A DNA stretch of 64,000 nucleotides. Origin: Chitinophaga deserti (GTDB taxonomy: Bacteria > Bacteroidota > Bacteroidia > Chitinophagales > Chitinophagaceae). This document shows positions 9,801-60,838 of this stretch, piece by piece (position 1 is the stretch's first letter; the number at the start of each line of letters is the position of its first letter). The notes under the pieces are model-generated. The model worked only from the letters and a program-made list of their open reading frames with translations, searched no databases and was not told the DNA's origin. The stretch covers positions 1 through 64,000 of the forward strand of contig NZ_QFFK01000002.1 in NCBI RefSeq assembly GCF_003149455.1, written 5' to 3'. The position numbers and the translations under genes are program-made.

Positions 9801-12800
9801 AGCACCGGTGTTGTGAAGGACACACCAGTACCAAGGAGGGTACCGCCGGTGGCAGCGTTGTACCATCTGTAAGTAAGTGCAGCCTGAGGATTAGTAACGT
9901 TCAGTACTGCCGTGCTGCCAGCGCAGGCGGTTTTCGCAGTTGCGTCTACCGTTACACTACCCGGAACCGGATTCACCGTGATGGCTACTGCCGTTCTGGT
10001 AGTGCTGGCGCAGGTGCCGTTATTAGCTTCTACATAGAAGGAAGTAGATGCACTGATAGCATTTACCGTGAAGCTTGTTCCGGTTGCCAGCGGAGTGCCT
10101 CCGGTAGCAGTGCTGAACCAGCTGTAGGTGATGCCTGCCTGCGGCGTCTGAATGCTGAGGCGAACAGTATCGCCCGCACAAACTGTGGCATTTCCTATTA
10201 CAACAGGTTGTGCCGGAGCTGCCGTGGCGATGAAGATCACCTGCGCACGGTTACCACTCGCGCAATCACCTGCATTTACTGCTTCCACATACACAGTATC
10301 GCGCATGGTCAGCGGTGCGGCAGTTGTATAACTGTTGCCGGTAAACAGGAGGGCGCCTCCTATCGGAGCGTCGTACCAGCGATAGGTAATACCTGCCAGC
10401 GGATTGCTAATGCTAGCTGTAGGACGATTACCTGCGCAAACCGTTACCTCACCATTGGTAACCGTTGGTGTTACAGGACGTGCAGTAACTGTTACGCTAA
10501 CCTGCGTGCGTGTTGCGCTTACGCAATTGCTGCTGTTTACTGCCTGTACATAGAAATTCCTGTTGGTGTTCAGTACCGGTGTAGTGAGAGACGCACCTGT
10601 ACCTACGAGGTTTCCGCCGGTAGCGGCATCGTACCATCTGTAAGTCAGGTTAGCCTGCGGATTCATCACATTCAGGGTGGCTGTAGTGCCTATACAGATT
10701 GTTTTGGAAGTTGCATCAACCGTTACTGCCGGAGGAGCAGGGTTTACAGTTACCAGCACAGCCGCTCTGGTGGTGCTTACACAACCGCCTGTATTAAGGG
10801 CTTCTGCGTAGAAGGTAACATTGGAAGCATGACCTGTTGAAGTAAAGGTGCTGCCTGTTCCCAGGAGGTTACCACCAGCAGGTGCATTATACCACCTGTA
10901 GGTAACACCTGCCACAGGGTTCTGTATCGAAAGACGAACAGTATCACCGGGGCAGATTGATGTGTTGCCGGTAACAACCGGTACTATCGGATTTGCTGCG
11001 ACAGACACAGTAACTCTTGTGAGGGATGCACTGCCACAACCACTTGCATTCACAGCCTGAACGAAGAAGGTATCGGCTGCATTTACCGGTCCAATCGGGA
11101 AGTTAACGCCTGTAGACAGTAGTGTACCGCCCGGCTGGTCGTACCAGTTATAAGTAATGCCAGCTACAGGGCTCAGTACGCGGAGCGTATCACGACCGCC
11201 ACTGCACACTGCAACACTTGTTGCCTGTACAGCCGGAGCCGCTGGCAGCAGATTCACGTTTACAAAAGCACGTGCTCTTGCAGAACTGATGCAATTACCT
11301 GTACCGATGGCATCCACGTAGTAAGATACCGTATCAGTAATTGCGGGGGTTACAAATACAGGTCCGGTAAATACCGGTGCACCGCCCGTTGCTGCTGCAT
11401 ACCACCTGTAAGTAATACCAGCCTGCGGATTACGAACGCTTACGGTAGCTGTTTGATTGAGACATACCGCCGTAGTTGCATTAGTTACAACAGGTATTGC
11501 CGGAGGCTGATTCACATTCACTGTGGCTGCCACACGGCCTCCTGCGTTCGGGCATCCGCCTGCGGAGCGAACAGCTTCCACATAATAGATCGTGGTATTG
11601 GACAAGGCCGGAGTTACGAAGGTATTACCGGTAAAGAGCGGTGTACCACCCGTTACCACATTATACCAGCGGTAAACCACACCAGCTGCAGGAGACACAA
11701 CACGGAGAGTACCTGTAGTGCCGGAGCAGATGGAGATGCTGTCCAGTTCAAGTACCGGGTTCGGAGGCAGCGTTGCTACCGTTACGGTAACTGATGTACG
11801 TGCTACCGTTCCACAGGTACCGTTAAATGTTTCTACATAATAAGTAGTATTAGCCGTGAGTACAGGCGTAGTGAATACACTGTCGAGGCTGAGCGGTGTG
11901 CCACCGGTGGCAGTTGCGAACCAGCGGATAGCATGAGCCGGATTAGCCGGACGAGCCTTCAGCACAGCAGTATTGCCGGTGCAGATGGTAGTATCACCCG
12001 CGATAATTGCCGGTGCCGGTGGTACAGGCAATACATTCACTGTAGCCTGGGTACGGATCGGGTTAGCGCAATTTGTAGAGGCCCTGAAGCTTTCTGCATA
12101 ATAGGTAGTAGTAGTGGACAATACAGGAGTATTGAACACTTTACCTACGAACACTGGTGTTCCACCAGTAGCCTGAGTATACCAGCGTACTGTTGCACTG
12201 TCTGATGCAGTTGCAGTGAGTGTAGCCGATGTACCTGCACAGATGGTTACGTTGTTCGTTGTGATAACCGGAGATGCAAGCACCCTGTTAGCATAGTACA
12301 CATTGACGTTCATCAGTGCCCCTACCAGGCTGCGTACCCGGATCTGAACACTGGTATATGGTGCTCCAGGCGCAAAGAGAACAGCCTGCTGATTGGCACC
12401 ACCAAGTAACACAACGCGGAGCAGTGAGTTGTTCAGCGTTTTTGTATCACCGTTGGATACTCCATTATTGAACGAGGTAATCTCGATACGGCCCAGGGCA
12501 GTTGCATCCAGTAAGCCGGACGGGGTAGCGAAGCGAAGTTTCACGGTATCGCCTGCTGCTGCCAGCGTCTGGAAGTTAAGGTTATAAGTTACATCGCCTG
12601 CCACCCCTACAGGAATAGAGATGTTAGCGAAGTTGGTAGTATCGTTATCTACCGCATTATCAGGATTAGTCACTGCACAAAGCAGGCAAACGCCATTAAC
12701 AGTTGAAGTCGCAGCATTTGCGAAATCGCAACCCGGGTTGAAGTTACGGTCTACATTCACCGTTACAGAAGTACGGTTAGCGCTGGCGCATCCACCCACA

Positions 12801-15800
12801 GATACTGCTTCCACATAATAGGTAATGGTATTTGCCAGTTGCGGTGTTACGAACGATGTTCCGGTGAATATCGGTGTACCGCCAGACGCCTGTGTATACC
12901 ATTTATAGGTATATGCTGCATTAGGTGCTGAGATATTCAACGTTGCGGTTTGACCATAATTCACAAGCCCGCTCGGCGGGATGATGGTTACCACCGGAGA
13001 TGCAGGCAGTGCTTCCACCATTACCGTTACCGTACGGGGTGTAACACTTGTGCACTGGCCGCTAACAGCCACTACATAATACGTAGCGTTCGCACCAAGT
13101 GCAGGTGTATTGAATACAGAACCGGTGAACACGAGGTTCGTAAGGCCGGCATCACTGTACCATCTGAAGTCTACACCAGGTGTGGTGCTATTAGCAGACA
13201 GCGTAGCCGATGTACCGATGCAGACGCTCGCATTAGCAGGCGTTACATCAGGTACTGCCGGGCGCTCGCTAACATTCACCTGTACTCCTGTTCTGGTAGC
13301 ACTTGCACATCCACCGGCAGAAACTGCTTCCACATAGTAAACTACCGAGCTGTCGAGCGCAGCAGTTATGTATGTTGCACCGGTAAACAGGGCAGTACCG
13401 CCACTTTGCTGGGAGTACCATCTGAAGGTCGCTCCTGCAGGGCCGGTAGCTCTTAATGTTGCAGAAGTACCGTCGCAGGTAGTAACTGTGGCATTTTCAA
13501 CTGTGGGGGCCGCAGGAGGTACACCTACGGTTACAGTTGCGGATACCCTTCCACCTGCATTGGGACAACCTCCCGTTGAACGCACTGCTTCCACATAGTA
13601 TATGGTGGTGCCATTCAATGCAGGTGTTATGAAGGTGGTTCCTTCAAATAATGGTGAGCCGCCTGTCAGCGAAGCATACCAGCGGTAAACTACGCCTGCC
13701 ACAGGAGCCGTTACGCGCAGGGTGGCGTTGGCTCCTGCGCAGATGCCCAGACTATCAGCTTCCAGTACCGGAGCCGGTGCTGCCGTGCTCACAGTTACCG
13801 TTACCGAAGTACGGGCCGCAGATCCACATGTTCCATTGTATGCTTCTACATAATAAGTCGTATTGGCCGAAAGTGCTGCTGTAACAAACACACTGTCGAG
13901 GCTCAGCGGAGTACCGCCCGTTGCTGCCGCAAACCAGCGGATCGTGAGCGATGGGTCTGACGGACGGGCCTTCAGGATCGCATTGTTACCCGAGCAGATA
14001 GTGGTATCGCCTGCGATGATTGCAGGAGACGGTGGCACCGGTAACACATTCACCGTTACAGCAGTACGTACAGGATTCGCGCAATTCGTAGATGCGCGGA
14101 AGCTTTCGGCAAAATAAGTAGTTGTTGTATTAAGTACGGGCGTGGTAAACACTTTGCCTGTAAAGACAGGTGTGCCGCCAGTTGCCTGCGTATACCACCG
14201 TACCGTAGCGCTGTCAGAAGCTGTTGCGGTGAGCGTAGCCGTACTGCCGGCGCAGATGGTGCTGTCGCTGGTAGAGATACGCGGTGCAGCCAGTACTCTG
14301 TTTGCATAATAAACATTCACGTTCATCAACGCACCAACCAGGCTGCGAACCCGCAACTGGATGCGATTGTAAGTACCGCCCGGCGAAAAGAGCACCACTT
14401 GCTGATTGGCTCCGCCAAGCAGGTCTACACGTACCAGAGAATTATTCAACGCCCTGGTATCGTTATTGGAAGTAGTGCCGTTGAACGAAGTGATCTCCAG
14501 CCTGCCAAGCGCTGCAGCATCCAGAAGGCCTGTAGGTGTGGCAAAGCGCAGTTTCACTGTATCACCTGCCGCCGCGAGAGACGGGAAGGTCAGCGTGTAG
14601 GTTACATCGCCTGCAACACCAACGGGGATGGAGATGTTCGCGAAGTTAGTGGTATCATTATCTACCGCATTGTCTGGGTTATTCACTGCGCAAAGCAGAC
14701 AAACACCATTCACGGATGATGTTGCCGCATTGGCAAAATCACAACCGGGATTAAAGTCGCGGTTTACGTTCACCGTAACTGCCGTGCGTGTACTGCTGGC
14801 GCAGCCGCCTGCAGATACCGTTTCGGCATAGAAGGTAGTTGTATTTGTAAGTTGTGGCGTAGTGAAAGAGAGCCCGGTACTAACAGGACTTCCGCCGGTG
14901 GGCGCAAGGTACCAGTTGTAGGTAGCTCCAGCCTGAGGACCACTGATCGTCAGGGTAGCGGTTTGGCCATATTCCACAATACCTGATACAGGATTGATGG
15001 TAACAATCGGTGCAGCCGGTGCCGCTTCTACCAATACGCTTACAGTACGGGGAGTTGTGCTAACACATTGACCGCTTGCTGCAACAACGTAATAAGTGGT
15101 ATTAGCGGTAATAACCGGTGTATTGAATACTGGACCTGTGAATACAAGGTTTGTTAATCCTGCATCGCTGTACCATCTGAAGTCAACTCCGGCAGTGGTA
15201 GATGTAGCTGTAAGTGAGGCACTTCCTCCGATACAAACCGCAGCACTTGCCGGGGTTACATCCGGAGTGGCAGGCCGGGTTGTTACATTCACCTGTACCG
15301 CCGTTCTCGTTGCACTGGCGCAACCGCCAGCCGATACAGCATCTACATAATAAATCACTGAACTGTCAAGTACAGGTGTGGTAAATGCCGCACCGGTAAA
15401 TACAGATGTACCGCCTGTTGCAGAAGTATACCAATTGAAGGTGGCACCTGCAGGAGCGGTGGCTCTCAGGATGGCAGATGTACCTTCACAGGTTGTAACC
15501 GTTGTATTTTCAACGGTTGGCGCTGCGGGCGCTGCACCCATCTTCACAAAGGCCCTTGTTCTTACAGGATTCGCGCAATTTGTAGATGTTTTAACTGCTT
15601 CCACATAGAATACGGAATCAACAGATACCGGTCCGGTTGTGAAAGATGTTCCGGAAGCGATGGGAGTACCACCTGCTGGTACAGTATACCAGCGGAACTG
15701 TGTATTGGGTTTCGGGGTAACATTGAAGGTAGCGGTTCCGCCTGCGCAAATCGTTACCGTATCCGGAGTTACTTCCGGCACTGCTATAAGTCGTTGTGCA

Positions 15801-18800
15801 TAATGCACATTTACTGCGGAGATCAAAGTAGCTACACCGGAATTGAGGCGAATTTCCACCCTGTCGAACACCGCTGTAGGGGCAAAGGCAACAATGGCCT
15901 GTGTATTGCCAGCCAGCAGCCTCAGATTAACCAGGCTGTTGTTAAGCGCTACACGATCATTATTAAAGGTTGTTCCATTGTATGTCGCAATTTGCGTTCC
16001 GCCAAGGAGGGCAACATCAGCCAGTGATCCGGTGAATGATATCAGTAACCGTACACTATCTCCGGCATCACTCGAAGTCGGGAAGATGAGCGTTTGTTGT
16101 GCATAAGCACCCAACAGGCCTGCTACCACGTGCAGTGATGAGCTGGAAGTTGAGCTTGCATCCACCGCTGCTCCCTGGTTATCAACAAAACATCCGATAC
16201 AAATACCGTTCACATTGCTTACCTGTGTGGTAGCAATGTCGCATGGCACATCCGGATTGGTAATAGTCACATTTGCCACTACTGCAACACGTTGGGCACT
16301 GGCACAACCTGTAGCATTGGTTGCCTCCACATAATAGGTGGTGGTAGATTGCAGTGCGGGTGTTGTAAAGCTAGGACCAGTGAATACAGCAGTACCTCCA
16401 ACAGGCACTTCATACCATTTGTAAGTAAGCGCTGCATTCGGATTATCAACCGTAAAGGTTGCAGTACTTCCCTGAGGAATAGTAACTGAATTCGCAGTCA
16501 CCGTTACATCAGCCAGCCCAACTTCCACTACTACCGGTACCCGTGTTTCGCTGGGGCAATTGGTAGTACCGGAAACCGCTTCTGCATAATACACGGTGTT
16601 TGCCGTAATGGCCGGAGTTGTGAAAGATGCACCGGTAGACAGTGGCGTACCGCCTGTGGCAGTACTATACCAGCGCACGGTATTACCCGTGGGCACAGTG
16701 GCATTAAGTGTAGCAGTCTGACCGCTGCAGACGTTTACCGTATCTGCCGCAATTGTGGGACGGGCAGTTATTTGTTGTACATAGAATACATTGATTTCAT
16801 TCAGTGCGGATACTACGCCTGTAAGCCTGATTTCCACGTTATTGAATACCTGGCTTGGAACAAAAGACACCACACTTTGCGTACCGCCGTTCAACAATTG
16901 CAGGTTCACCAATCCGCTGTTCAGCGTTCTTACATCAGCAGCATTCTCTGTTGCACCCATCCTTGGACGAACAGATGTACCTGCCAGCAGGTTCAGATCA
17001 AGAAGGCCTGTGGTAGAACCAATTACTATACGCAGCGAATCTCCCTGCGTACTGGACTGAGGGAATGAGATGCGCTGGTAAACAGATCCGCCCAGCAGCC
17101 CTACCGGCAGGTGGAGTGATGAAGAAGTCTGCGGATTATCATCTACCGCGAGGCCCGCATCATCCACACCGCACAACAGGCAAAGCCCTAATGTACCGGT
17201 AGCAGTTGATAAAGTACCACGACCGCATGACAGATCAGGACTGGCCGGCCCTACCGTTACCGTAATCGGAACACTGGTACGGATGAAGCTTGTAAGACCA
17301 TCAGGCGTTGCGGCCTGTACATAATATGTTTTATCCTTCAGCAGCGCAGGCGTATTGAAAGTGGCACCTGTTGCAACAGGAACACCGCCGGTTGGAGTTT
17401 CGTACCAGCTGAACGTAGCCCCGGGGAATCGGATGGAAGCATTGAATGTGGTATCGTTACCGAATGGCACTGTGGCACTTGGCGGTACTACTGTTACCGG
17501 TACAAATGCTGCGGCTTCATAAATATTAAGGTTACTCAGCGCTGTCACCAATCCGTTCAGATCTATCCGCACACCATCGAATCCGCTGGTGGCCGGTAAA
17601 ACTACTTTGAATTTGCTCACGTTACCGGTAACATCCAGGCCTAATGCCTGAAGGTTTACCAGGTCGGCATCGAGCGTAACAGGATTACCGTTGGGTGTAG
17701 ATCCTGAATAAGTTTCTACCCGGATGCCCGAAAGCAGCTGGGCGCTCAGTATTTGATTCGGCACACCAAGGAAGAGCGCAATGCTGTCGCCTGCCTGGTA
17801 AGTACCGGGGAATTTAATCAGTTGGCCTACAGATCCGCCGGCACCTACCGTCATCACTACCTGCGATGCTGTAGTGGTATCCTGGTCTACCGCCAGGTTG
17901 GGATTAAGTACGCTGCAACCCAGACAGATACCACCAATAAGCGGACTTTGCTGCAGGTCGCCATACGTCCATAACGGACCGGGGCCACCATTAACGGTTA
18001 CGGTAGCAGATGTACGCGAGAAGCTTCGTTTGCCATCAGACGGGGTGAAGGCTTCCGCGAAATAAGTTTTGGTTCGGGTAAGTACAGGTGTTGTAAATGA
18101 TGCAGCATTGCCCACTGCAGTACCACCATTTTGTTCCTGGAACCAGGAATAGGTAGCACCCGGAGCGCGCACGCTGGCAGTCATAGAAGCTGTGGAGCCG
18201 GAAGGTATAACCGGCGCAGGAGGTGTAATTGTTAACGGCATGAATGCCACTGCTTCATACACACGCAGCCCGCTTAAACCAGCCAGAGCAGCGGAAGTAC
18301 CTATGCTCACACCATCGAAGGACTGGCCAACGGGGAAGGTAACCCTGAATTTACCAGTGCTGCCCACTCCAATGCCAAGCGGTTCAAGTCTTACCAGACC
18401 ACTGTTTAATGCAATAGCGTCGCCATTCGGCGTATCACCGGTGTAAGTCTGAGCCGTTAAGCCACCGAGTGCTGTTAAACTGAACAGCTGATCAGGCAAC
18501 TCAAGGAACAGTGCGATACTGTCGCCGGCCTGGTATACACCGGGGAAATGAATGATCTGTGAAATACTGCCCAGCGCGCCCAACGGCATGCTGATCAGTG
18601 AGGAAGTAGTAGTATCCTCATCCACCGCATTTGCTGCATCTGAAATATTGCAGCCTACACAAATACCGTTGATGGCAGGACCGTTCTGACGGTCACCATA
18701 TGTCCACAACGGACCAGGCCCTCCACCCACGTTAACAGTTGCCAGGGTACGCACATAGCTCTTTTTGCCGTCTGGCGTGCTGGCTTCTACATAGTATAAA

Positions 18801-21800
18801 GTTTGACGGGAAAGGTTAGGAGTATTGAATGTGGCGCCTGTGAATACAGACGTACCGCCGGCTGGTGAGGTAAACCAATCGAATGTTACCGGCGAAAGGC
18901 GGTTAGTGGCTGCAATAGTAGCGGAAGTGTTGAGCGGGATGGTTTGTACGGCAGGTGTTACCGTAACAGGCACCATCGCCGTTGCTTCAAATACCTGCAG
19001 GTTGCTCAAGCCTCCTACAACAGGTGCCAGAGAAATCTGCACAGCATTAAAGTCTGCTGTGGCGGGGAGGGTAACCCGGAATTTACCGGTGGGCCCTACC
19101 GCAATACCCAGTGCCTGGGCATTGGCGAGTGCAGCGCTATAAGCCGCTGCATCATTATTGGAAGTGCTGCCATTAAATGTTTCTATCCGGATGCTGTTCA
19201 GTAATTGCAGAGAAAGCAGCTGACCTGCCGGAATAGCCAGGTCAAAGATGATGCTGTCTCCCGTATGATAATTACCCGGGAAGCGGATCAGCTGGCCTGC
19301 GCTGGAAAGTACACCCAGCGGGATGCTGATGGTTGATGCTGTTGTTGTATCCTCATCTACAGCCAGTTGGGGACTTGTTACCGAGCAACCGAGGCAAACT
19401 CCACTCAGAACGGGGCTGGACTCTGTATCTCCATATGTCCAAAGTGGCCCGTCTGCTCCACCAACCGTTACAGGAACTGCGGTGCGTACATAACTGGTTA
19501 CACCACCCGCTGATGCTTCTACATAATATGTGGTACTGCGCGTGAGGTTAGGCGTATTGAAATTGGCGCTCGTACTAACCGGAGTACCTCCCGTGGGAGT
19601 AGTGTACCATGCAAAAGTTGCACCGGCAGGGCGTACCGTAGCAGCAAGATTTGCAGATGTTCCATAAGGCACAACTGCAGGGTTGGGAGTTACCCCAACC
19701 GGGATCATGGCCACTGCTTCATATATACGCAGGGTAGCCAGCTCAGCCAGTACTGCATTCAGGTTCACCTGCACAGCATCGAAAGATGTGGTGGCAGGAA
19801 TGCTTACTCTGAACTTAGGTGTGCCGCCCAGGCCAACACCCAGCGCCTGCACATGAATAAGGTCGGTGCCGAGGTTGATGGCGGCTCCCGCAGTTGCGGC
19901 ACCAAGGTATGGCTGCAGTGAAATATTAGTGAGGAGGGATTTCGTATAAAGTACGCCGGGCAACTCCAGATCCAGGATAATGCTGTCGCCCGCCTGATAA
20001 ATACCGGGGAAGCGGATCAACTGACCTACCGTGCTGGCAACGCCAACCGGTGAAGATAATGTGCTGAAGGTATTAGGGTTACCATCCACGGCATTGTTCG
20101 GATCAGTCACGGAGCAAAGCAGGCAAACGCCGCCCAGCTTCGGACTTTCTTCTTCAAAACCATACGTCCATAACGGACCAGCTCCGCCACCCAGGTTAAC
20201 GGTTGCGAGTGTGCGGTTAAAGCTTGTTTTCCCGTCAGGCGTACTTGCTGCTACATAGTATCGTGCTCTTGCAGTAAGGTTTGGTGTATTGAAAGTAGCC
20301 CCCGTAAATACCGGAGACCCGCCCGTTGGCGTGGTATACCAGTTGAAAGTAGCCGTAGAAAGTCTATTGGCTGCCGTGATAGTTGCAGAAGTATTATAGG
20401 GTACTGTTTGAGTGGCAGGATTCACTGTCACCGGAATGGTAGCAGTAGCTTCATACACCTGAAGGTTTGCCAAACCACCGATCAATGGAGATAGTGAAAT
20501 CTGTACCGCATCGAAATCAGTACCTGCCGGGAGCGTTACACGGAATTTACCGGTTGGCCCCACACCAATTCCTAATGCCTGTGCAGCAGCAAGCGATGCA
20601 TTGAAAGCAGCGGCATCATTGTTAGCTGTGCTGCCGTTGAAAGTTTCTATGCGGATGCTGCCCAGCAGCTGAAGCGAAAGCAACTGACCTGCCGGGATGC
20701 CGAGGTCGAGAATGATACTGTCTCCCGCATGATAATTACCCGGGAAGCGGATCAGCTGGCCGGCATTGGAAAGCACGCCTGCAGTAATATTGATAGTAGA
20801 TGCAGTAGTTGTATCCTGATCCACGGCCAAACCGGGATTTGTAACAGAGCAACCTACGCAAACTCCGCTGAGAACAGGACTTGTTTCAGTATCACCGAAT
20901 GTCCATAACGGACCATCAGTCCCCCCAACTCTTACAGGCACCGCAGTGCGCACGTAGCTTGTAACTCCGTTCGATGCAGCTTCCACATAATATGTGGTGC
21001 TGCGGGAAAGGTTAGGTGTATTGAATGTGGCACTGGTGCTTACAGGCGATCCGCCGGTAGGGGTAGTATACCAGGCAAAAGTAGCCCCTGCCGGGCGCAC
21101 GGTAGCACTGAGACTGGTAGATGTTCCATAAGGCACTACCGGTGCTGCGGGTGTTACTGCTACCGGGATCATGGCCACGGCTTCGTAAACACGCAGTGTG
21201 CCCAGTTCAGCCACCAATGCATTAAGGTTAACCTGCACGCCATCGAAAGAAGCTGTTGCAGGAATGCTTACACGGAATTTAGGTGTACCGCCAAGTCCTA
21301 CGCCAAGTGCCTGTACATGAATGAGATCGGTACCCAGACTTACTGCGGCGCCTGCCGGAGAGGCACCCAGATATGGCTGCAGGGATATATTGGTAAGAAG
21401 CGATTTGGTATAAACAACACCGGGTAGTTCGAGGTCGAGTACGATACTGTCGCCCGCCTGATAAATACCGGGGAACTTAATGAGCTGTCCAACAGTGCTA
21501 AGCAGCCCTACAGGAGAAGAAATAGTGCTGAAAGTATTTGGATCGGCATCTATTGCATTGGCAGGGTCTGCCACTGTGCAAAGGGCGCATACGCCACCCA
21601 GTTTCGGACTTTCTTCCTGATCGCCATAGCTCCAGAGCAGACCGGGGCCGCCTCCTACGTCTACCGTAGTACCGGTACGGAGGATGCTGGTAAGACCATC
21701 AGAAGTGGTGGTTGCTTCTACATAATAATCATGAACACCACGGGTTAACACGGGTGCATAGGTAGCGCCGGTGTGTAGTAGGGTTCCACCGGTGGGAGCA

Positions 21801-22624
21801 TCGTACCAGCGGAAGGTAGCTGCGCCAAGGCGGTGGGTGGCTGTCATGGAAGCTGCCTGACCGGCAGGACTGATTATAGGATCGGCGGAAGGAGTTATTG
21901 TAACTGGTACCACAGCGGCAGCCTGGAACAATTGCATATCGTAGCTGAGGCTTACGAGGCCGCCAAAGGTAATGGCAATCTGATCGAACTGTTGGGTGAT
22001 GGGGATCACCGCTCTTCTTTTGCCGGTGGAGCCAACGCCCAGGAGCTGAACATTCACTGCGGTGCCGAGGCGTACATCCTGACGAACGGTGCTGCCACCG
22101 CCGAGGTATGTTCTTACCCGCACGTTATTTAGTACGGAAGCATCTACGAGTCCCGAAGTGGTGAGTGCGAAATCGACCACGAGACTATCGCCCGCTTCAT
22201 AGGTTCCGGGGAATACGATCCGTTGTCCCATTTCTGCAACGAGGCCCAGTGCCATATTATATAATGCGGCGGTGTTGGGATCGTTATCGATGGAGTTTCC
22301 GGGATCGGTGATGGTGCAACCGATACAGGTAATGGAGGTGATGTTGGATGCAGTGGTGCCGCGGGAATAAATGGGTCCTGCGGCAAAGAAATTACGTACA
22401 GCCGGTACGTTTAGCCAGGAAAACCTGGCATCATCATGCAACATCGGGGATTTCCCAAACCAATCTTCCAGGTTAGGTACAGGGGATTGTTCCGGATACC
22501 ACCAATATTGATTATATGCTGCGGGGGTGGCAGCGCGCGCGTTCCCGGCTGTACCGAGCATGAAAGCTGCGGAGAGCACGAATAAGAAGCGCAATAAGCA
22601 ATTCGGAGTAACATTACAACTCAT
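6833..22624 (-). CDS. Giant T9SS-secreted surface protein with discoidin-like, Ig-like and FN3 modules and a type B CTD
   Basis: Predicted cell-surface adhesin or gliding-type filament of 5263 residues. The signal peptide ends near residue 31 (GNARA-A). Eleven discoidin-like modules follow (GVCxxC..AVDxDxxTxS..FPGxYxAGDSI); their CxxC pairs are encoded near 22320, 21585, 20860, 20120, 19390, 18660, 17930, 17175, 16195, 14697 and 12684. Each is followed by CHU_C-type Ig-like modules (RWYxxxTGGTxLxTG..TYYVEA) in the numbers 1,1,1,1,1,1,1,2,4,6,19, about 38 in all. An FN3-like domain (about 5085-5160) and a gliding-motility-associated type B C-terminal domain follow (about 5173-5263, VPNAFTPNNDGTNDIL..VYNQWGQLVFES..GWDG). 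It is the first gene of the cassette, with the PorP/SprF-like and PorE-like genes downstream. The ligand is unknown; the discoidin-like modules suggest carbohydrate binding. The frame is uninterrupted despite the repeats. Confidence 0.93.
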   Translation of the reverse strand: MSCNVTPNCLLRFLFVLSAAFMLGTAGNARAATPAAYNQYWWYPEQSPVPNLEDWFGKSPMLHDDARFSWLNVPAVRNFFAAGPIYSRGTTASNITSITCIGCTITDPGNSIDNDPNTAALYNMALGLVAEMGQRIVFPGTYEAGDSLVVDFALTTSGLVDASVLNNVRVRTYLGGGSTVRQDVRLGTAVNVQLLGVGSTGKRRAVIPITQQFDQIAITFGGLVSLSYDMQLFQAAAVVPVTITPSADPIISPAGQAASMTATHRLGAATFRWYDAPTGGTLLHTGATYAPVLTRGVHDYYVEATTTSDGLTSILRTGTTVDVGGGPGLLWSYGDQEESPKLGGVCALCTVADPANAIDADPNTFSTISSPVGLLSTVGQLIKFPGIYQAGDSIVLDLELPGVVYTKSLLTNISLQPYLGASPAGAAVSLGTDLIHVQALGVGLGGTPKFRVSIPATASFDGVQVNLNALVAELGTLRVYEAVAMIPVAVTPAAPVVPYGTSTSLSATVRPAGATFAWYTTPTGGSPVSTSATFNTPNLSRSTTYYVEAASNGVTSYVRTAVPVRVGGTDGPLWTFGDTETSPVLSGVCVGCSVTNPGLAVDQDTTTASTINITAGVLSNAGQLIRFPGNYHAGDSIILDLGIPAGQLLSLQLLGSIRIETFNGSTANNDAAAFNASLAAAQALGIGVGPTGKFRVTLPAGTDFDAVQISLSPLIGGLANLQVYEATATIPVTVNPATQTVPYNTSATITAANRLSTATFNWYTTPTGGSPVFTGATFNTPNLTARARYYVAASTPDGKTSFNRTLATVNLGGGAGPLWTYGFEEESPKLGGVCLLCSVTDPNNAVDGNPNTFSTLSSPVGVASTVGQLIRFPGIYQAGDSIILDLELPGVLYTKSLLTNISLQPYLGAATAGAAINLGTDLIHVQALGVGLGGTPKFRVSIPATTSFDAVQVNLNAVLAELATLRIYEAVAMIPVGVTPNPAVVPYGTSANLAATVRPAGATFAWYTTPTGGTPVSTSANFNTPNLTRSTTYYVEASAGGVTSYVRTAVPVTVGGADGPLWTYGDTESSPVLSGVCLGCSVTSPQLAVDEDTTTASTISIPLGVLSSAGQLIRFPGNYHTGDSIIFDLAIPAGQLLSLQLLNSIRIETFNGSTSNNDAAAYSAALANAQALGIAVGPTGKFRVTLPATADFNAVQISLAPVVGGLSNLQVFEATAMVPVTVTPAVQTIPLNTSATIAATNRLSPVTFDWFTSPAGGTSVFTGATFNTPNLSRQTLYYVEASTPDGKKSYVRTLATVNVGGGPGPLWTYGDRQNGPAINGICVGCNISDAANAVDEDTTTSSLISMPLGALGSISQIIHFPGVYQAGDSIALFLELPDQLFSLTALGGLTAQTYTGDTPNGDAIALNSGLVRLEPLGIGVGSTGKFRVTFPVGQSFDGVSIGTSAALAGLSGLRVYEAVAFMPLTITPPAPVIPSGSTASMTASVRAPGATYSWFQEQNGGTAVGNAASFTTPVLTRTKTYFAEAFTPSDGKRSFSRTSATVTVNGGPGPLWTYGDLQQSPLIGGICLGCSVLNPNLAVDQDTTTASQVVMTVGAGGSVGQLIKFPGTYQAGDSIALFLGVPNQILSAQLLSGIRVETYSGSTPNGNPVTLDADLVNLQALGLDVTGNVSKFKVVLPATSGFDGVRIDLNGLVTALSNLNIYEAAAFVPVTVVPPSATVPFGNDTTFNASIRFPGATFSWYETPTGGVPVATGATFNTPALLKDKTYYVQAATPDGLTSFIRTSVPITVTVGPASPDLSCGRGTLSTATGTLGLCLLCGVDDAGLAVDDNPQTSSSLHLPVGLLGGSVYQRISFPQSSTQGDSLRIVIGSTTGLLDLNLLAGTSVRPRMGATENAADVRTLNSGLVNLQLLNGGTQSVVSFVPSQVFNNVEIRLTGVVSALNEINVFYVQQITARPTIAADTVNVCSGQTATLNATVPTGNTVRWYSTATGGTPLSTGASFTTPAITANTVYYAEAVSGTTNCPSETRVPVVVEVGLADVTVTANSVTIPQGSTATFTVDNPNAALTYKWYEVPVGGTAVFTGPSFTTPALQSTTTYYVEATNATGCASAQRVAVVANVTITNPDVPCDIATTQVSNVNGICIGCFVDNQGAAVDASSTSSSSLHVVAGLLGAYAQQTLIFPTSSDAGDSVRLLISFTGSLADVALLGGTQIATYNGTTFNNDRVALNNSLVNLRLLAGNTQAIVAFAPTAVFDRVEIRLNSGVATLISAVNVHYAQRLIAVPEVTPDTVTICAGGTATFNVTPKPNTQFRWYTVPAGGTPIASGTSFTTGPVSVDSVFYVEAVKTSTNCANPVRTRAFVKMGAAPAAPTVENTTVTTCEGTSAILRATAPAGATFNWYTSATGGTSVFTGAAFTTPVLDSSVIYYVDAVSAGGCASATRTAVQVNVTTRPATPDVTPASAAVCIGGSASLTATSTTAGVDFRWYSDAGLTNLVFTGPVFNTPVITANTTYYVVAASGQCVSTTPRTVSVLVEAAPAAPIVTINPVSGIVEYGQTATLTISGPQAGATYNWYLAPTGGSPVSTGLSFTTPQLTNTTTFYAETVSAGGCASSTRTAVTVNVNRDFNPGCDFANAATSSVNGVCLLCAVNNPDNAVDNDTTNFANISIPVGVAGDVTYTLTFPSLAAAGDTVKLRFATPTGLLDAAALGRLEITSFNGTTSNNDTRALNNSLVRVDLLGGANQQVVLFSPGGTYNRIQLRVRSLVGALMNVNVYYANRVLAAPRISTSDSTICAGSTATLTATASDSATVRWYTQATGGTPVFTGKVFTTPVLNTTTTYFAESFRASTNCANPVRTAVTVNVLPVPPSPAIIAGDTTICSGNNAILKARPSDPSLTIRWFAAATGGTPLSLDSVFVTAALSANTTYYVEAYNGTCGSAARTSVTVTVSTAAPAPVLEADSLGICAGANATLRVTAPVAGVVYRWYASLTGGSPLFEGTTFITPALNGTTIYYVEAVRSTGGCPNAGGRVSATVTVGVPPAAPTVENATVTTCDGTSATLRATGPAGATFRWYSQQSGGTALFTGATYITAALDSSVVYYVEAVSAGGCASATRTGVQVNVSERPAVPDVTPANASVCIGTSATLSANSTTPGVDFRWYSDAGLTNLVFTGSVFNTPALGANATYYVVAVSGQCTSVTPRTVTVMVEALPASPVVTIIPPSGLVNYGQTATLNISAPNAAYTYKWYTQASGGTPIFTGTSFVTPQLANTITYYVEAVSVGGCASANRTSVTVNVDRNFNPGCDFANAATSTVNGVCLLCAVTNPDNAVDNDTTNFANISIPVGVAGDVTYNLNFQTLAAAGDTVKLRFATPSGLLDATALGRIEITSFNNGVSNGDTKTLNNSLLRVVLLGGANQQAVLFAPGAPYTSVQIRVRSLVGALMNVNVYYANRVLASPVITTNNVTICAGTSATLTATASDSATVRWYTQATGGTPVFVGKVFNTPVLSTTTTYYAESFRASTNCANPIRTQATVNVLPVPPAPAIIAGDTTICTGNTAVLKARPANPAHAIRWFATATGGTPLSLDSVFTTPVLTANTTYYVETFNGTCGTVARTSVTVTVATLPPNPVLELDSISICSGTTGTLRVVSPAAGVVYRWYNVVTGGTPLFTGNTFVTPALSNTTIYYVEAVRSAGGCPNAGGRVAATVNVNQPPAIPVVTNATTAVCLNQTATVSVRNPQAGITYRWYAAATGGAPVFTGPVFVTPAITDTVSYYVDAIGTGNCISSARARAFVNVNLLPAAPAVQATSVAVCSGGRDTLRVLSPVAGITYNWYDQPGGTLLSTGVNFPIGPVNAADTFFVQAVNASGCGSASLTRVTVSVAANPIVPVVTGNTSICPGDTVRLSIQNPVAGVTYRWYNAPAGGNLLGTGSTFTSTGHASNVTFYAEALNTGGCVSTTRAAVLVTVNPAPPAVTVDATSKTICIGTTATLNVMNPQANLTYRWYDAATGGNLVGTGASLTTPVLNTNRNFYVQAVNSSNCVSATRTQVSVTVTARPVTPTVTNGEVTVCAGNRPTASISNPLAGITYRWYDAPIGGALLFTGNSYTTAAPLTMRDTVYVEAVNAGDCASGNRAQVIFIATAAPAQPVVIGNATVCAGDTVRLSIQTPQAGITYSWFSTATGGTPLATGTSFTVNAISASTSFYVEANNGTCASTTRTAVAITVNPVPGSVTVDATAKTACAGSTAVLNVTNPQAALTYRWYNAATGGTLLGTGVSFTTPVLTANSSFFVEAVNSSNCASNNRTQVTVTVTPAPVTPTVTNATVTVCAGNRPTASVTPQPGVIYRWYDVPNGGTVLFTGATYTAAQPLTMRDTVYVEAVNAGNCPSGSRAQVIFIATAAPAQPVVTGATTVCAGDTVRLSIQTPQAGITYTWYSTATGGTPLATGTTFAVNAISASATFYVESNNGTCASITRTVVAITVNPVPGSVTVDATAKTACAGSTAVLTVTNPQAALTYRWYNTATGGMLLGTGVTFTTPVLTANSSFYVEAVNASNCASNNRTQVMVTVTPAPSTPAVANGEVTVCSGNRPTAAVSNPLAGITYRWYDAPSGGMLLFTGATYTSAQPLTMRDTIYVEAVNTSNCASGNRAQVILIASAGPAVPVIVGNTTVCAGTPISLSVQSPQPGITYRWYDAANGGSLLFTGSTYAPTGLTATTSFYVESNNGTCASATRAAVMVTISPAPPAVTVDAAAKTVCVGNTAVLNVTNPQAALTYRWYDAATGGTLLGTGASFTTPVLTATDIFYVEAVNTANCASNARTSVTVTTTAGPAVPTPVDAEVTVCRGLRATGRVRDARTDLLYRWYDAPSGGNLLFTGASYTTPAGLTLRDTVYVEATLLGGSCASNGRAQVILIPADAPSVPVLANGGTVTICSGSTATFTIQNPVAGVVYRWYDAANGGTLLQSGNMPTYTTGALTSSLTVYVEAVVGGSCTSPGRALARADVGGIPVVPVVTAAANTICPDSTVRITATSSQAGTTFNWYTSATGGTPIFTGAVFTTPALTAATTYYVSAANASGCMSATRTPVTINVYAVLAAPTVTIASKTATSVTFGWNAIPGSLGYRVSTDGGVTFTQPSSGLTGTTHTVTGLEPNQVVTLQVMAIGASECANSAWFQGGGSTDNPAGNLIFVPNAFTPNNDGTNDILYVYGTTIRQMEFRVYNQWGQLVFESKERVRGWDGTMSGRKQPVGVYNYVLRAVLQDGTTVNKRGTITIIR
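7900..11010 (-). repeat. Four tandem copies of a ~770-bp three-Ig-module super-repeat
   Basis: Within the last Ig block the modules recur as a triplet: a GDTVRLSIQ type, a VTVDATAKT type and a CAGNRPTA type whose C-terminal part reads DTVYVEA. Equivalent bases in the third module type fall at 7994, 8764, 9535 and 10303, a period of 768-771 bp (256-257 residues). Copies differ by many silent changes, so the duplication is not recent. The outer limits are approximate. Confidence 0.8.
11500..15530 (-). repeat. Two copies of a ~2.01-kb unit (discoidin-like plus six Ig modules)
   Basis: The tenth and eleventh discoidin-like modules are almost identical (both GCDFANAATS.VNGVCLLC) and share the same order of flanking Ig types. 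CAAAGCAG in the CxxC codons lies at 12678 and 14691, an offset of 2013 bp (671 codons). The outer limits are approximate. Confidence 0.8.
18715..21655 (-). repeat. Tandem duplication of a 1464-bp two-module unit
   Basis: Modules 2+3 and 4+5 of the giant protein are pairwise near-identical (for example the shared SLLTNISLQPYLGA and GDSIILDLELPGV). Matching bases at 21625/20161 and 20891/19427 both give an offset of exactly 1464 bp (488 codons), pointing to one tandem duplication of a two-module block. Confidence 0.85.
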
Positions 22625-27344: not shown

Positions 27345-27386
27345 AAAAAAGGAACCGTCGCACTTGTTTGAGACGGTTCCTTTTTT
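27345..27386 (+). terminator. Terminator of dps
   Basis: Stem GGAACCGTC / GACGGTTCC followed by TTTTTT. Loop, stem and tail (CACTTGTTTGAGACGG..TTTTTTATGCTC) closely match the terminator after the tRNA array at 57916-57948. Confidence 0.92.
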
Positions 27387-27419: not shown

Positions 27420-27569
27420 CTGTAAAGCTTTTTTCAATATAAGACACTATAAGTTCAGGCTATCCAAATTGTCTGCTAATTGTCATGTGAGATACCTTTG
27501 AGTTACCTTTGAGCCACCTATAAGCCACCTTTAAGCTACCCTAAAGGAGGGTGGCTTATAGGTAACTTA
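27420..27569. repeat. Bipartite element plus 11-nt array with inverted half (array 2)
   Basis: CTGTAAAGC (27420-27428) and ATAAGACACTAT (27439-27450) are spaced by ten bases exactly as at 101-131. Five 11-base units follow (27488 TGAGATACCTT, 27499 TGAGTTACCTT, 27510 TGAGCCACCTA, 27521 TAAGCCACCTT, 27532 TAAGCTACCCT). Two units then appear in inverted orientation (27548-27558 and 27559-27569), giving a perfect 14-bp inverted repeat ACCTATAAGCCACC (27516-27529 / 27550-27563). The region lies between the convergent dps and OmpA-like genes. No gene is seen in 27387-27670. Confidence 0.7.
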
Positions 27570-27670
27570 TATCTGCATCATACCTGGGTTGTAGATAATT
27601 TATGTTACATTTTTCTATTTTGTAGGCCTTAGGTTACAAGGAATGTAAAGGGAGGCAAACCAGTGGCAAA

Positions 27671-27703
27671 GAAAAAGGCCGCCTCAGACTAGTGAGACGG
27701 CCC
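27671..27703 (-). terminator. Terminator of the double-OmpA gene
   Basis: Arms GGCCGCCTCA and TGAGACGGCC flank a short loop. Read on the minus strand the stem is followed by TTTTTC, 26 bases after the stop codon. Confidence 0.85.
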
Positions 27704-27728
27704 TTCGGTTTTTATGCCTGCTTGCCAA

Positions 27729-57470: not shown

Positions 57471-57541
57471 GGTGCCTGTAGTTCAGTGGCAGAACGTCCG
57501 GTTGTGGTCCGGATAGCGAGGGTTCGATTCCCCCTGGCACC
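57471..57541 (+). tRNA. tRNA-His (GTG), atypical
   Basis: D-arm GTTC / GAAC and anticodon arm TCCGG-TTGTGGT-CCGGA give anticodon GTG. G at 57471 (position -1) and C73 are the two bases specific for histidine tRNA. Oddities: the acceptor stem GTGCCTG / CTGGCAC has a T-T mismatch, and the T-arm (GAGGG-TTCGATT-CCCC) is one base short or has an A-C mismatch. The CCA end is not fully encoded. It is nearly identical to the Pro-type element at 57782-57851 outside the acceptor stem and anticodon. Confidence 0.65.
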
Positions 57542-57567
57542 CAAATGGAGGCCTGCACTTAGGGGTG

Positions 57568-57637
57568 TATTGTCGTATAGTGGTATTACGCCCGGCAGAG
57601 GGCCGGGAAACGCAGGTTCGATTCCTGCCGGCGTTCA
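57568..57637 (+). tRNA. tRNA-like element, probably not decoding
   Basis: A perfect T-arm GCAGG-TTCGATT-CCTGC and a D-arm-like segment GTA..TAC are present. The anticodon region CCCGGC-AGAGG-GCCGGG, however, folds into a six-pair stem with a five-base loop. If forced into a seven-base loop the would-be anticodon is GAG with A instead of the near-universal U33. No 5' partner for the 3' acceptor strand CGGCGTT is visible. It sits in the tRNA array between the His and Glu-type elements. Possible pseudogene or tRNA-mimic RNA. Confidence 0.4.
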
Positions 57638-57659
57638 TTTTTGTTGACCCTTTTTATAT

Positions 57660-57732
57660 AGCGCCATGGTATAACGGTAGTATCCCGGTCTTTCATCACC
57701 GGACGTGGAGGGTTCGAGTCCCCCTGGCGGCA
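57660..57732 (+). tRNA. tRNA-Glu-like (TTC), atypical
   Basis: Anticodon stem CCGGT / ACCGG encloses CTTTCATC, which contains TTC after U33 but has eight bases instead of seven. D-arm GTAT..GTAT pairs weakly with two G-T wobbles. T-arm GAGGG-TTCGAGT-CCCCC has an A-C mismatch. The acceptor stem AGCGCCA / TGGCGGC is mismatched at the two outer positions. Either a degenerate tRNA-Glu or a specialised RNA. Confidence 0.5.
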
Positions 57733-57781
57733 CTAATCATGGACCTCCTATATCAGGTCCACCATTGTTTGATGCCCCGTT

Positions 57782-57851
57782 ACACCAGCAGTTCAGCGGC
57801 AGAACGTCCGGTTTGGGTCCGGAAGGCGAGGGTTCGATTCCCCCTGGTGTT
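57782..57851 (+). tRNA. tRNA-Pro-like (TGG), paralogue of the His element
   Basis: Acceptor stem ACACCAG / CTGGTGT is perfect. D-arm GTTC / GAAC and anticodon arm TCCGG-TTTGGGT-CCGGA give anticodon TGG. Position 8 is C rather than the universal U. The T-arm is short in the same way as in the His element. Over 58 bases (D-arm to start of the 3' acceptor strand) it matches the His element at 53 positions, so the two derive from one ancestor with switched anticodon and acceptor stem. Confidence 0.6.
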
Positions 57852-57915
57852 CGCTTTTCTTAGCCTATACCTGTGAATGGTTAGTTTCATCCTGTTAACC
57901 CAACCCCGGAAGCCC

Positions 57916-57948
57916 GGGCCGTCTCACTTGCTTGAGATGGCCCTTTTT
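57916..57948 (+). terminator. Terminator of the tRNA array
   Basis: Arms GGGCCGTCTCA and TGAGATGGCCC followed by TTTTT. Sequence and downstream tail (CACTTGCTTGAGATGG, CATGCTCTTAAT) closely resemble the dps terminator at 27345-27386. Confidence 0.9.
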
Positions 57949-58030
57949 CATGCTCTTAATAAGGCACAACTACCCCTTCCCAACCCATTATATGACAACA
58001 TTCAGTGGCATTCCGGGCCATAAAGAAGGT

Positions 58031-58217
58031 TAAAGTATGTATAACTAAGGGCTAAGGAGTATATAAGTTATCCATTAGCTAAGTATACCTTTCCTGTACC
58101 TAAACTATAGCTATCCTATACTGGGACTGGCTTTCAGGTGGTTTTATATACATTATACCTTCTTTAAGTATACTTTAAACCTACTTTAAGGATACTTTAT
58201 GCCCCTTTTAACCACCG
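58031..58217. repeat. Seventeen-unit degenerate 11-nt array (array 3)
   Basis: Seventeen consecutive 11-base units run without phase change, starting at 58031. Units 1-9 nearly all begin with TA (58042 TAACTAAGGGC, 58064 TAAGTTATCCA, 58108 TAGCTATCCTA). Units 13-17 begin with TTTA (58163 TTTAAGTATAC, 58174 TTTAAACCTAC, 58185 TTTAAGGATAC). The array lies between the tRNA-array terminator and the GH31 terminator, two tail-to-tail transcription units. A degenerate match to the bipartite element (ATATGACAACAT, 57990-58001) precedes it. The 460-bp gap 57852-58312 holds no gene. Confidence 0.7.
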
Positions 58218-58257: not shown

Positions 58258-58290
58258 AAAAAGGCCGCCCCATGTAAATGGAGCGGCGTC
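58258..58290 (-). terminator. Terminator of the GH31 locus
   Basis: Arms GCCGCCCCAT and ATGGAGCGGC with a GTAA loop; on the minus strand the stem is followed by CCTTTTTATT. Confidence 0.88.
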
Positions 58291-58312: not shown

Positions 58313-60757
58313 TTATTCCACGTTTATAGTTATGGACTGATTATCGTTGGCCAGCGTCAACGTTTTTACAACGCATTTCACGACAGGATTGGCCACACCC
58401 TGCGGATCGAAGCGCGATACCGGCTGTACTGCTACCCAGCTTCCCGCATCCAGTTTTCTTTCTGCCCCGTTTACCTTCGCAACATCTTTCCCAAATCCAT
58501 GCAATACGAGTTGTATATGCCGGAAGTGAGAAGCCGTGCCGCTGACGGGCTTCTCCAATGTAAGATTCCCATCAGCAGGCCGGTAATCGATCACGCGCCG
58601 GTAGCTCGCGCCTTTTTCATAAGCATATGTTTCACCATCATCTTCATAATATTCAAACCTGTTGTTGCGGTTGCCTTTATAAACATGCAGGAACAGCGTG
58701 TCCGAAGGTTTTTCCGCCGTGGTTTGCACCAGCGACTGCATGGGGATAATACTGCTCTCCCGGATATATACCGGAAGGGTATGCATCCCCAGCGTCAGCA
58801 TTTTCTCCTGTCCGCCGGTGGCAACAGTATCGTTGTAGAGATTATACCAGGTGCCGGGCGGCAGATATACGGGGGCGTAAGGCTGCTTACTGTCGAAAGG
58901 GGCCACCATAATACCATCGCCCAGGAGAAACTGGTTCTGGAACCGGGGATCGTATACGAGCGGGTCGTGCGTCCAGCCTATGGCGAGGGTTCGCATCAGC
59001 GGCATACCTGTTACGGAGGCTTCATGAAAACCGGAATAGAGGTAAGGCAGCAGGCGGTAGCGCAGGTTGATGTAGTTCCGCGCAATCTCCAGCACTTCTT
59101 CCCCGAAAGCCCATGGCTCCGCAGATTTGGTGTTGATGCCGGTATGACTGCGGCAGTACGGTAAAAACGCCCCCAGCTGAATCCAGCGGGCATAAAGTGC
59201 AGGAGAGCCATTACCCGTAAACCCGCCGATGTCCATACCCGAAAAAGCCACACCGCTGAGGCCAAGACTGTTCATAAGCCGTACACCCAGCAGCATATGA
59301 TCATCTTCCGCACGGTTATCACCGGTCCAGATGGCGGTATAACGCTGCAGGCCGGCGTATCCTGCGCGGGTAAGGAGGAAGGGCCGCCTGCCCTGCATGG
59401 ATGCGCGGGCGCCCTCATAACTGGCCTGCACCATGGCAAGTCCGTATACATTATGCGCCTGGCGGTGCGTGGCCGACCTTCCTTCAAAATCGAACAGCAC
59501 ATTGTCGGGCATATTCTGCCCCCAGGTAGCAATCTCATTCATATCGTTCCACAATCCATCCACACCGGCTGCCGTAAAACTCTTCACCTGCTCTTTCCAC
59601 CAGTTGCGGCCTTTCGGACCCGTGAAGTCAGGAAAGTGGCACCAGCCTGGCCATACCTGGCCGGTGTAATATTGTCCGTCGGAATATTTGATGAAAATAT
59701 CTTCCTTCTTACCGCTTTCATAAGCATGGTATCCTGCTTCGGTTTTAATACCGGGGTCAACGATCACGGTAGTACGGAAGCCCATTTTACGCAGCCGGGC
59801 ATTCATACCTGCAGGATCGGGGAAGCGTAGCTTATTCCAGGTAAATAATTTGTACGCGTCCATGTAGTGGATATCGAGCGTAATACCATCTGCAGGTATC
59901 TGCTTTTCCCGCATGGTTTGTGCGATCCGCATTACTTCCGCCTCCGGGTAGTAGCTATAACGGTTTTGCTGATAACCCAGGCTCCATAACGGCGGCATGT
60001 GCATACGCCCCGTTAGCCAGGTATATGCAGTGATGATGCCCGATACTTCGGGGTGGTGGATGAAGTAATAATTCATTTCACCGCTGTTGGCAGAAAAAGA
60101 AGCGAAGCGGTTGTTGCTGGCGCCGAAGTTGAAATTCGTGCGGTAGCTGTTATCGAAAAACAGGCCGTAGCTTTTGCCGTGATGGATGCCGATGTAAAAA
60201 GGAATGGTGGCGTAGATGGGGTCCTGGTTAACGGTGTACCCGAATGCATCGGTGTTCCAGTTGGTGTAGGAGCTGCCCCGCCTGTCGAGGTTACCGGTTT
60301 TTTCTCCAAGCCCTATAAACCGTTCCCCATCCTGCATGGTTTTATAGGCAGTTACCTCTTCCCCTATCCATGAGGTGCCAAGGCCCGGTTCATCTGCCTG
60401 TAATACTTCACCGCTTTTTGTGAGGAAGGTGATGGAAAAAGGCTGCTTACCGATGCGCGTTACGAGCGAATCGGTTTCCAGCTTAATCTCATCAGCATTC
60501 TGGGTAATGACGGGCGCAAAGTTTTTAGGAGTGGCTACCACTGCGTAGGAAAAATCTTTCTCCAATGCCTGCCTGTTCATCCGTACACGAACCACGTTAT
60601 GCGACCATGCCGTTACTTCCGCACTGGCATTAGCTGCCTTGATGCGGATGGTTTGACCCGTGATCTTCACATCGGTCACATTCCCTGGGGTTACCACCTG
60701 CTGCGCCGCTGCAGTAACGGCTGTCAGGAGGCAAAAGCAAATCATTCTGCCGGTCAT
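58313..60757 (-). CDS. Glycoside hydrolase family 31 (alpha-glucosidase-type)
   Basis: Secreted or periplasmic alpha-glycosidase of about 814 residues. The start at 60757 gives a signal peptide (MTGRMICFCLLTAVTAAAQ); the frame extends 15 codons upstream without purpose. An N-terminal beta-sandwich domain (about 25-230) precedes the (beta/alpha)8 catalytic barrel. The barrel carries the nucleophile Asp in DGLWNDMNEIATW (about 395-407), the acid/base Asp in AIWTGDNRAEDDH (about 475-487) and GLSGVAFSGMDIGGFTG. C-terminal beta domains follow, one a DUF5110-like segment (RFEYYEDDGETYAYEKG). It is the last gene of a susC-susD-GH31 locus, suggesting alpha-glucan (starch, maltodextrin or related) use. 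Confidence 0.95.
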   Translation of the reverse strand: MTGRMICFCLLTAVTAAAQQVVTPGNVTDVKITGQTIRIKAANASAEVTAWSHNVVRVRMNRQALEKDFSYAVVATPKNFAPVITQNADEIKLETDSLVTRIGKQPFSITFLTKSGEVLQADEPGLGTSWIGEEVTAYKTMQDGERFIGLGEKTGNLDRRGSSYTNWNTDAFGYTVNQDPIYATIPFYIGIHHGKSYGLFFDNSYRTNFNFGASNNRFASFSANSGEMNYYFIHHPEVSGIITAYTWLTGRMHMPPLWSLGYQQNRYSYYPEAEVMRIAQTMREKQIPADGITLDIHYMDAYKLFTWNKLRFPDPAGMNARLRKMGFRTTVIVDPGIKTEAGYHAYESGKKEDIFIKYSDGQYYTGQVWPGWCHFPDFTGPKGRNWWKEQVKSFTAAGVDGLWNDMNEIATWGQNMPDNVLFDFEGRSATHRQAHNVYGLAMVQASYEGARASMQGRRPFLLTRAGYAGLQRYTAIWTGDNRAEDDHMLLGVRLMNSLGLSGVAFSGMDIGGFTGNGSPALYARWIQLGAFLPYCRSHTGINTKSAEPWAFGEEVLEIARNYINLRYRLLPYLYSGFHEASVTGMPLMRTLAIGWTHDPLVYDPRFQNQFLLGDGIMVAPFDSKQPYAPVYLPPGTWYNLYNDTVATGGQEKMLTLGMHTLPVYIRESSIIPMQSLVQTTAEKPSDTLFLHVYKGNRNNRFEYYEDDGETYAYEKGASYRRVIDYRPADGNLTLEKPVSGTASHFRHIQLVLHGFGKDVAKVNGAERKLDAGSWVAVQPVSRFDPQGVANPVVKCVVKTLTLANDNQSITINVE

Positions 60758-60838
60758 ATCGTGCTTGTTTTTGTGCAAAAAGAATCCAGCAGAGGGCGGC
60801 ATTACCGCCCCCTGCCTGGATATTTTCCTGTTCAGTCT

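Follow-up and report, generated by a model that had tools for sequence, protein, structure and literature searches.

Periodicity and surroundings of the array at 58031–58217

The window analysed here, 64,000 bases of Chitinophaga deserti (contig NZ_QFFK01000002.1, positions 1 to 64,000), contains an intergenic stretch at 58031–58217 that had been predicted to consist of 17 uninterrupted, in-phase units of 11 bases. The period itself is real: lag-11 identity is 0.506, whereas 2000 dinucleotide shuffles give 0.275 (z 6.6), and none of the 2000 reached the maximum found over lags 4–40. Since identity at lag 22 (0.515) is as strong as at lag 11, the stretch is in part organized as 22-nt dimers. 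The supposed unbroken run is actually two periodic blocks, at about 58023–58118 and 58140–58210. The left one carries units of the family designated H below, read on the minus strand (over 58031–58120, identity 0.52 at lag 11 and 0.54 at lag 22, equalled by 0 of 2000 shuffles), and the right one carries H units on the plus strand, TATACCTTCTT, TAAGTATACTT, TAAACCTACTT and TAAGGATACTT (lag 11 0.60, lag 22 0.71). The centre between these inverted blocks (58119–58139), which spans about two units, has no clear 11-nt period; the lag-22 match is at background around 58100–58122, dropping to 8–9 of 33, and over 58108–58162 the lag-11 signal is weak (p 0.052). The inverted likeness of the two halves of 58031–58217 gave an alignment score of 41, the best of 500 shuffles being 30, and 15 further places in the C. 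deserti genome match the array (E ≤ 1e-3).

To the left lies a tRNA cluster on the plus strand (57471–57852; His, Leu, one without an assigned anticodon, and Pro, by tRNA scan), followed at its 3' side by a terminator-like hairpin (57916–57943, plus strand). To the right are a second such hairpin (58264–58287, minus strand) and the gene to which it belongs, specifying a glycoside hydrolase of family 31 (GH31; 58313–60802, minus strand, by Pfam), which served as the anchor for orthologous places. Both hairpins were found by a standard terminator scan. Within the cluster, the tRNA-like gene at 57660–57733 received an odd four-base anticodon call (ttca) from ARAGORN and an Rfam score of 31.5 against a gathering score of 29; this tRNA may be degenerate or odd.

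Over the whole window, scanned at lags 5–30, lag 11 gives exactly three places, with scores of 82, 81 and 78, the next best being 54. Similar arrays had been proposed at 137–213 and 27488–27569, and lag-11 identity confirms both (0.591, z 5.6, with 0.636 at lag 22, and 0.648, z 7.4, respectively). The second array, at 27477–27575 and of family D by alignment, consists of ACCTTTGAGNN units followed by an inverted arm (scoring 14, where 20 shuffles reached at most 9) and lies between a ferritin-like gene (plus strand) and an OmpA-family gene (minus strand), both assigned by Pfam. The third, of alternating GTATTACCGTA-like units (137–213), stands at the window edge and is followed by a minus-strand PfkB-family gene (Pfam), whose 3' end faces it. 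The standard terminator scan found nothing near 27488, where a visible hairpin (27351–27386) has a loop exceeding the limit of the tool. The stem GGCCGTCTC/GAGACGGCC is common to the terminator-like hairpins at 27351–27386, 27673–27713 and 57916–57943 and is a repeated terminator sequence of the C. deserti genome. Elsewhere in the window, 6833–22624 on the minus strand is a single ORF of 5263 codons, the size of a large modular synthetase.

Genome-wide census and gene context

The C. deserti genome comprises 6.33 Mb in 23 contigs, and the counts of arrays, gaps, anatomy, phasing and duplications given below come from a sample of 1.26 Mb. At threshold T58 this sample contains 33 arrays at lag 11 and 15 at lag 22; with multiples of 3 set aside, the remaining lags in the range 4–35 have at most one each. 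When the scan is confined to intergenic DNA (141,878 bases), 31 arrays appear at lag 11, 13 at lag 22 and 4 at lag 33, and no other lag between 4 and 40 gives more than one; the multiples-of-3 signals of the unrestricted scan therefore derive from coding DNA. The further copies that one would have expected elsewhere in the genome thus exist, as a genome-wide class.

At T56 there are 37 arrays, and for 35 the gene context is known: 23 convergent, 12 co-directional and none divergent. When only gaps 150 bases or longer are counted (gene calls from a simple custom script and ARAGORN), an array is present in 20 of the 44 convergent gaps and 11 of the 140 co-directional ones, and in none of the 72 divergent ones (convergent against the rest, Fisher 1.7e-10). 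Four divergent gaps are occupied at the low threshold T48, but there most lags give 1–16 chance matches. The arrays had been said to lie always between tail-to-tail transcription units; this is so for the two window arrays with both neighbours known, if the tRNA cluster is taken as the left neighbour at 58031 (137–213 being at the window edge), but not in the genome sample, where 12 of 35 are co-directional. The accompanying claim of terminators on one or both sides fits the array at 58031, which has two by standard scan; at 27488 that scan gives none beside the hairpin visible at 27351–27386; in the genome sample a terminator-like hairpin stands between flanking gene and array in 28 of 35 cases, by a custom finder run without a shuffled control. 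From these hairpins it follows that most arrays probably sit outside transcription units.

Could the arrays be neutral tandem repeats, arising from a mutational bias to 11-nt duplications (for example through one-turn nuclease or primer-length steps) and kept in spacers alone? They are indeed located where little else is constrained, and E. coli SbcCD, described as cutting long hairpins at steps of about 10 bp (PMC6265447), is a possible ruler, which by analogy could serve hairpin copies only. Against this, 119 kb of array-free gaps contain 3 tandem duplications with a unit of 11 nt, fewer than with 9 nt (14) or 10 nt (8), and 1.10 Mb of coding DNA contains 3 of 11 nt and 15 of 10 nt; only in the occupied gaps is there an excess (43 vs 6). 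A general 11-nt slippage tendency was rejected on these grounds. Local duplication would also leave the scattered homologous copies described below unexplained, and we consider the neutral origin very unlikely.

Families and phasing of the units

Units are alike within one array and differ between arrays. An all-against-all comparison of the arrays with single linkage yielded groups of 29, 8, 2 and 3, the group of 29 being partly chained via flanks and via locus L279, which holds two array kinds. We read these groups as probable families A/B, C, D, E, F and H (the letters are our own) plus singletons. For one representative of each of 19 labels, the score for a common 11-mer was 2.93 as against 2.75 expected (p 0.087). 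Ten of 171 label pairs were alike at p ≤ 0.05, with 8.6 expected, and the closest were labels split from one family; the 19 labels include such splits (E/E2/E3, H/H2, A/B), and it is these that give the lowest p-values. A shared super-consensus, which across all 46 arrays, with matches in runs of N left out, reached 2.5 bits against 1.88 (best null 2.15), was dropped in view of the p of 0.087 for the 19 representatives. The feature common to the families is the 11-nt length, and their unit sequences are no more alike than chance. The arrays are neither a microsatellite nor a coding repeat, and spacing is kept while sequence changes, both as originally proposed: unrelated units share one length. 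With no shared unit sequence, a single sequence-specific binding protein is disfavoured.

A bending array, which had also been suggested, is not supported. When the columns of 53 arrays were permuted with the 11-nt period kept, the real arrays had mean ranks of 0.497 for GC, 0.469 for AA/TT/TA/AT, 0.507 on the Brukner scale and 0.527 for an Olson-like roll (expected 0.5, s.e. 0.04), equal to those of permuted ones. The sole value above expectation, 0.635 for the Bolshoy roll, is largely due to the H family. Bending or helical phasing was rejected on this test, the Bolshoy scale excepted, and the length of 11 is explained neither by helical phasing (in 53 arrays) nor by a shared unit (in 19 labels).

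This result bears on whether the arrays are topological or nucleoid sites, that is, phased DNA of about 80–190 bp that would load gyrase or a nucleoid protein between converging units, where positive supercoils gather. The BIME-2 sites of E. coli are loading sites of this kind. Location is in favour, since the arrays lie downstream of genes and fill 20 of the 44 convergent gaps of at least 150 bases, and gyrase sites in E. coli are likewise reported to be enriched downstream of transcribed operons (PMC6379681). According to the same source, those sites have a motif of 130 bp in which GC is phased with a 10.75-bp period. The arrays are like them in having lengths near 130 bp, a period near one turn and a position downstream of transcription units, and unlike them in that neither GC nor A/T phasing exceeds that of any 11-mer (mean GC percentile 0.497 relative to column-permuted arrays). 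Moreover, the downstream enrichment in E. coli is described there as not encoded in the sequence (PMC6379681), and 24 of the 44 convergent gaps are without an array. We regard such a function as unlikely.

A separate sequence, TACTGTAAAGGGTTTG, forms a near-palindrome together with its flank (AAACCCTTTACAGTAAAGGGTTT). It occurs in excess in Chitinophaga, for the most part at a distance from the 11-nt arrays. With at most one mismatch it has 52 matches in 22 of 40 genomes, the reversed pattern having 10, and with at most two mismatches it has 19 matches in the C. deserti genome. It was considered as a core motif of the arrays, several H arrays being adjoined by it, and rejected, as most of the loci inspected lack an array; near arrays, control patterns were locally enriched as well. 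In three species (G000:C12:364066 [L170], L131 and L143) TACTGTAAAGGGTTTG or a close variant is found in the neighbourhood of TTATCCACA-like sequences, TTATCCACA being the DnaA box, and these sites are possibly near the replication origin.

Inverted arms

Inverted arms scoring at least 13 occur in 13 of 33 arrays, 12 of which exceed all of 20 shuffles, and the arms are themselves composed of 11-mers; the other 20 have no clear arms. Family A/B has five unit variants (CCTTCAGT, CCTTCGGT, CCTTCTAC, CCTTCATC and CCTCCATC). Each of these has its counterpart in the opposite arm, and within a hairpin copy the arms agree even where copies diverge from one another. The distance from the last left-arm to the first right-arm motif, taken in eight A/B hairpins, is 35 (three), 36 (one) or 46 bases (four), a step of 35 plus 0, 1 or 11. 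With a lax aligner, the lengths of gaps between members of a family peak modestly at 11, with 31 cases; length 10 has 19 and length 12 has 8. In the D copy at L278, from C. pinensis isolate 3, the same changes are present throughout the units. We read the agreement between arms and the uniform unit changes as pointing to concerted change in whole units.

Arms of this kind might act as RNA, folding into a hairpin at the 3' end of each of the two transcripts and so backing up termination or protecting the mRNA 3' end. Their pairing is strong in the 13 arrays, the folding z is below −3 in 12 of 33, and the 3'-end location and the paired changes in both arms agree with such a role. The 20 armless arrays nevertheless have the same period, for which RNA pairing would give them no reason. 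Since a terminator-like hairpin precedes the array in 28 of 35 cases (by the uncontrolled finder), most arrays would be transcribed by read-through only. Finally, an Rfam scan of the window at gathering score returned four tRNAs and nothing else, hence no known structured RNA. A role at the RNA level appears quite unlikely to us.

Dispersal and turnover

Members of a given family lie dispersed over the genome and are 75–95% identical. The sub-family A1 occupies 12 places in C. deserti, the query included, with 86–100% identity over at least 100 bp, and was matched in 4 of 30 genomes searched, among them C. deserti itself. In C. pinensis isolate 3 it has 14 places (90–95%), and family D has 13 further places there (75–89%). 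The two A1 copies that we compared share 125 bp with ragged ends and, in this one pair, no evident target duplication.

C. pinensis isolate 3 supplies the best named match to the GH31 protein (97% identical) among the matches listed, which may omit very near records, and DNA identity around that gene is 87–91%. Eight orthologous gaps were compared with this sister strain; they are a non-random set, consisting of the 58031 array, L278 and L279 (sister-strain matches to its array), and five picked for variety out of 33. Three keep the array, two hold another family, and three are otherwise changed or ambiguous. The kept arrays are those at 27477 (95% over 1301 bases), at C12:417058 (84% over 1100) and at L164/L279 (95%). 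Comparison of the sequences showed swaps at the 58031 gap and at C12:468820, each with H in C. deserti and D in C. pinensis isolate 3. The remaining three were judged from alignment rows only: C12:123194 is 88% identical over the slot, with A-type matches of 95–97% over 36–38 bases inside it; at C1:135515 the flanks align, and 253 bases in C. deserti and 172 in C. pinensis isolate 3 do not; and C12:211093 is 74% identical over the slot. At the last the inverted-arm rows typical of most A1 copies are missing, and for this reason the A1 hairpin is probably absent from that slot in C. pinensis isolate 3.

The idea of a rapidly evolving repeat family therefore holds in the form of several families that are swapped between sister strains; such turnover is not universal, since three of the eight orthologous arrays are simply conserved. 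That a slot can stay filled while its sequence is exchanged, as at 58031 and C12:468820, is also what one would expect of topological sites. In the sister strain, the conserved H array of L279 is accompanied by about 375 additional bases (L279:1637–2012) that include a C-type array; about 176 of these bases match a C-type place in the C. deserti genome at 79.5%.

Range in other genomes

With low-complexity matches left out, relatives of the same genus yielded seven lag-11 arrays at T58 in 69 kb of intergenic DNA, with further unit sequences, the other lags giving a mean of 0.31 and a maximum of 2. At T54, two of nine matches (both in L128) resemble A/T-rich noise. Other genera and other families together yielded one lag-11 array in 79 kb, where about 17 would be expected at the C. 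deserti density; other lags had means of 0.25 and 1.0 and maxima of 3 and 4, respectively. These genera have gyrase too, and the near absence of the class from them (1 in 79 kb) further weakens the case for topological sites. For 31 Chitinophaga-like loci with the GH31 gene, scanning each locus in full at T54 or above gave an array in L178 alone, and among 49 GH31-gene loci of other genera L246 and L250 have one lag-11 match each. The gap orthologous to 58031 in genome G006 (L012, about 75% identity) is 124 bases long and has no array.

Relation to known elements

We were unable to find a description of this 11-nt array class in the open-licence literature, judged by titles and abstracts. The foldback transposon Tm1 is described as having inverted arms of tandem short direct repeats, with a unit of about 14 bp in varying number, around a centre (PMC3169594). 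The arrays resemble eukaryotic Foldback transposons in being dispersed and non-coding and, in 13 of 33 cases, in having arms of tandem short units around a centre. They differ in being bacterial, in their size of 80–190 bp, in an 11-nt length fixed across unrelated families and in the lack of clear arms in 20 of 33, and no transposase, terminal motif or target duplication was identified (Y1 search; one A1 pair). The likeness is one of anatomy, and makes the arrays candidate members of that group only.

REP sequences are described as palindromes of 20–40 bp with a GTAG or CGTC tag, and REP, BIME and REPIN elements as short, dispersed and intergenic, with a preference for convergent and co-directional gaps (PMC3733652). 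The arrays, too, are short, dispersed, palindromic and intergenic, and share this preference; unlike REPs, they have arms made of tandem 11-mers, families that differ in sequence, and copies of about 90–130 bp in D and A/B. A RAYT/REPIN origin was rejected, as the Y1 transposase domain (PF01797) has 0 matches in the C. deserti genome; it is present in 2 of 15 same-genus relatives searched. We know of no transposase for the CGTC REPs, and the absence of Y1 consequently bears on the GTAG class alone. Prokaryotic satellites are described as non-coding tandem arrays scattered in a genome (PMC6749651), from which the present arrays are set apart by one prevailing unit length across intergenic DNA, combined with unit sequences that vary from family to family.

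The best explanation, to which we give about an even chance, is that the arrays are foldback-like miniature dispersed repeats of Chitinophaga, about 80–190 bp long, which change in whole 11-base units. Each element would be a tandem series of 11-nt units, in many cases arranged as a pair of inverted arms flanking a short centre. Some activity would move or copy arrays around the genome; they would grow, shrink and be corrected in whole units by unequal exchange and by template switching between arms; and they would last in the spacers beyond terminators because nothing is interrupted there. With low confidence, we suggest that 11 is held in all families because the acting factor needs sites one helical turn apart and hardly reads the sequence; one-turn site spacing, or a one-turn copying step, as the origin of 11 is speculation.

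It is also possible, if doubtful, that the element class is defined by unit length alone. A dedicated, nearly sequence-blind ruler of one helical turn would then copy, bind or mobilise DNA in 11-nt steps, so making and maintaining families of unrelated sequence, and the convergent spacers would be slots refilled with another family after loss.

Tandem repeat families are usually defined by sequence; here the length is common and the sequence is not, which suggests that some process or constraint gauges a length of about one helical turn. In the sample, arrays are present in nearly half of the longer convergent gaps. They form a countable class with natural replicates, in places that have been kept, swapped or changed, on which one may ask whether the spacers of Chitinophaga are havens for selfish repeats or hold working elements of the chromosome.
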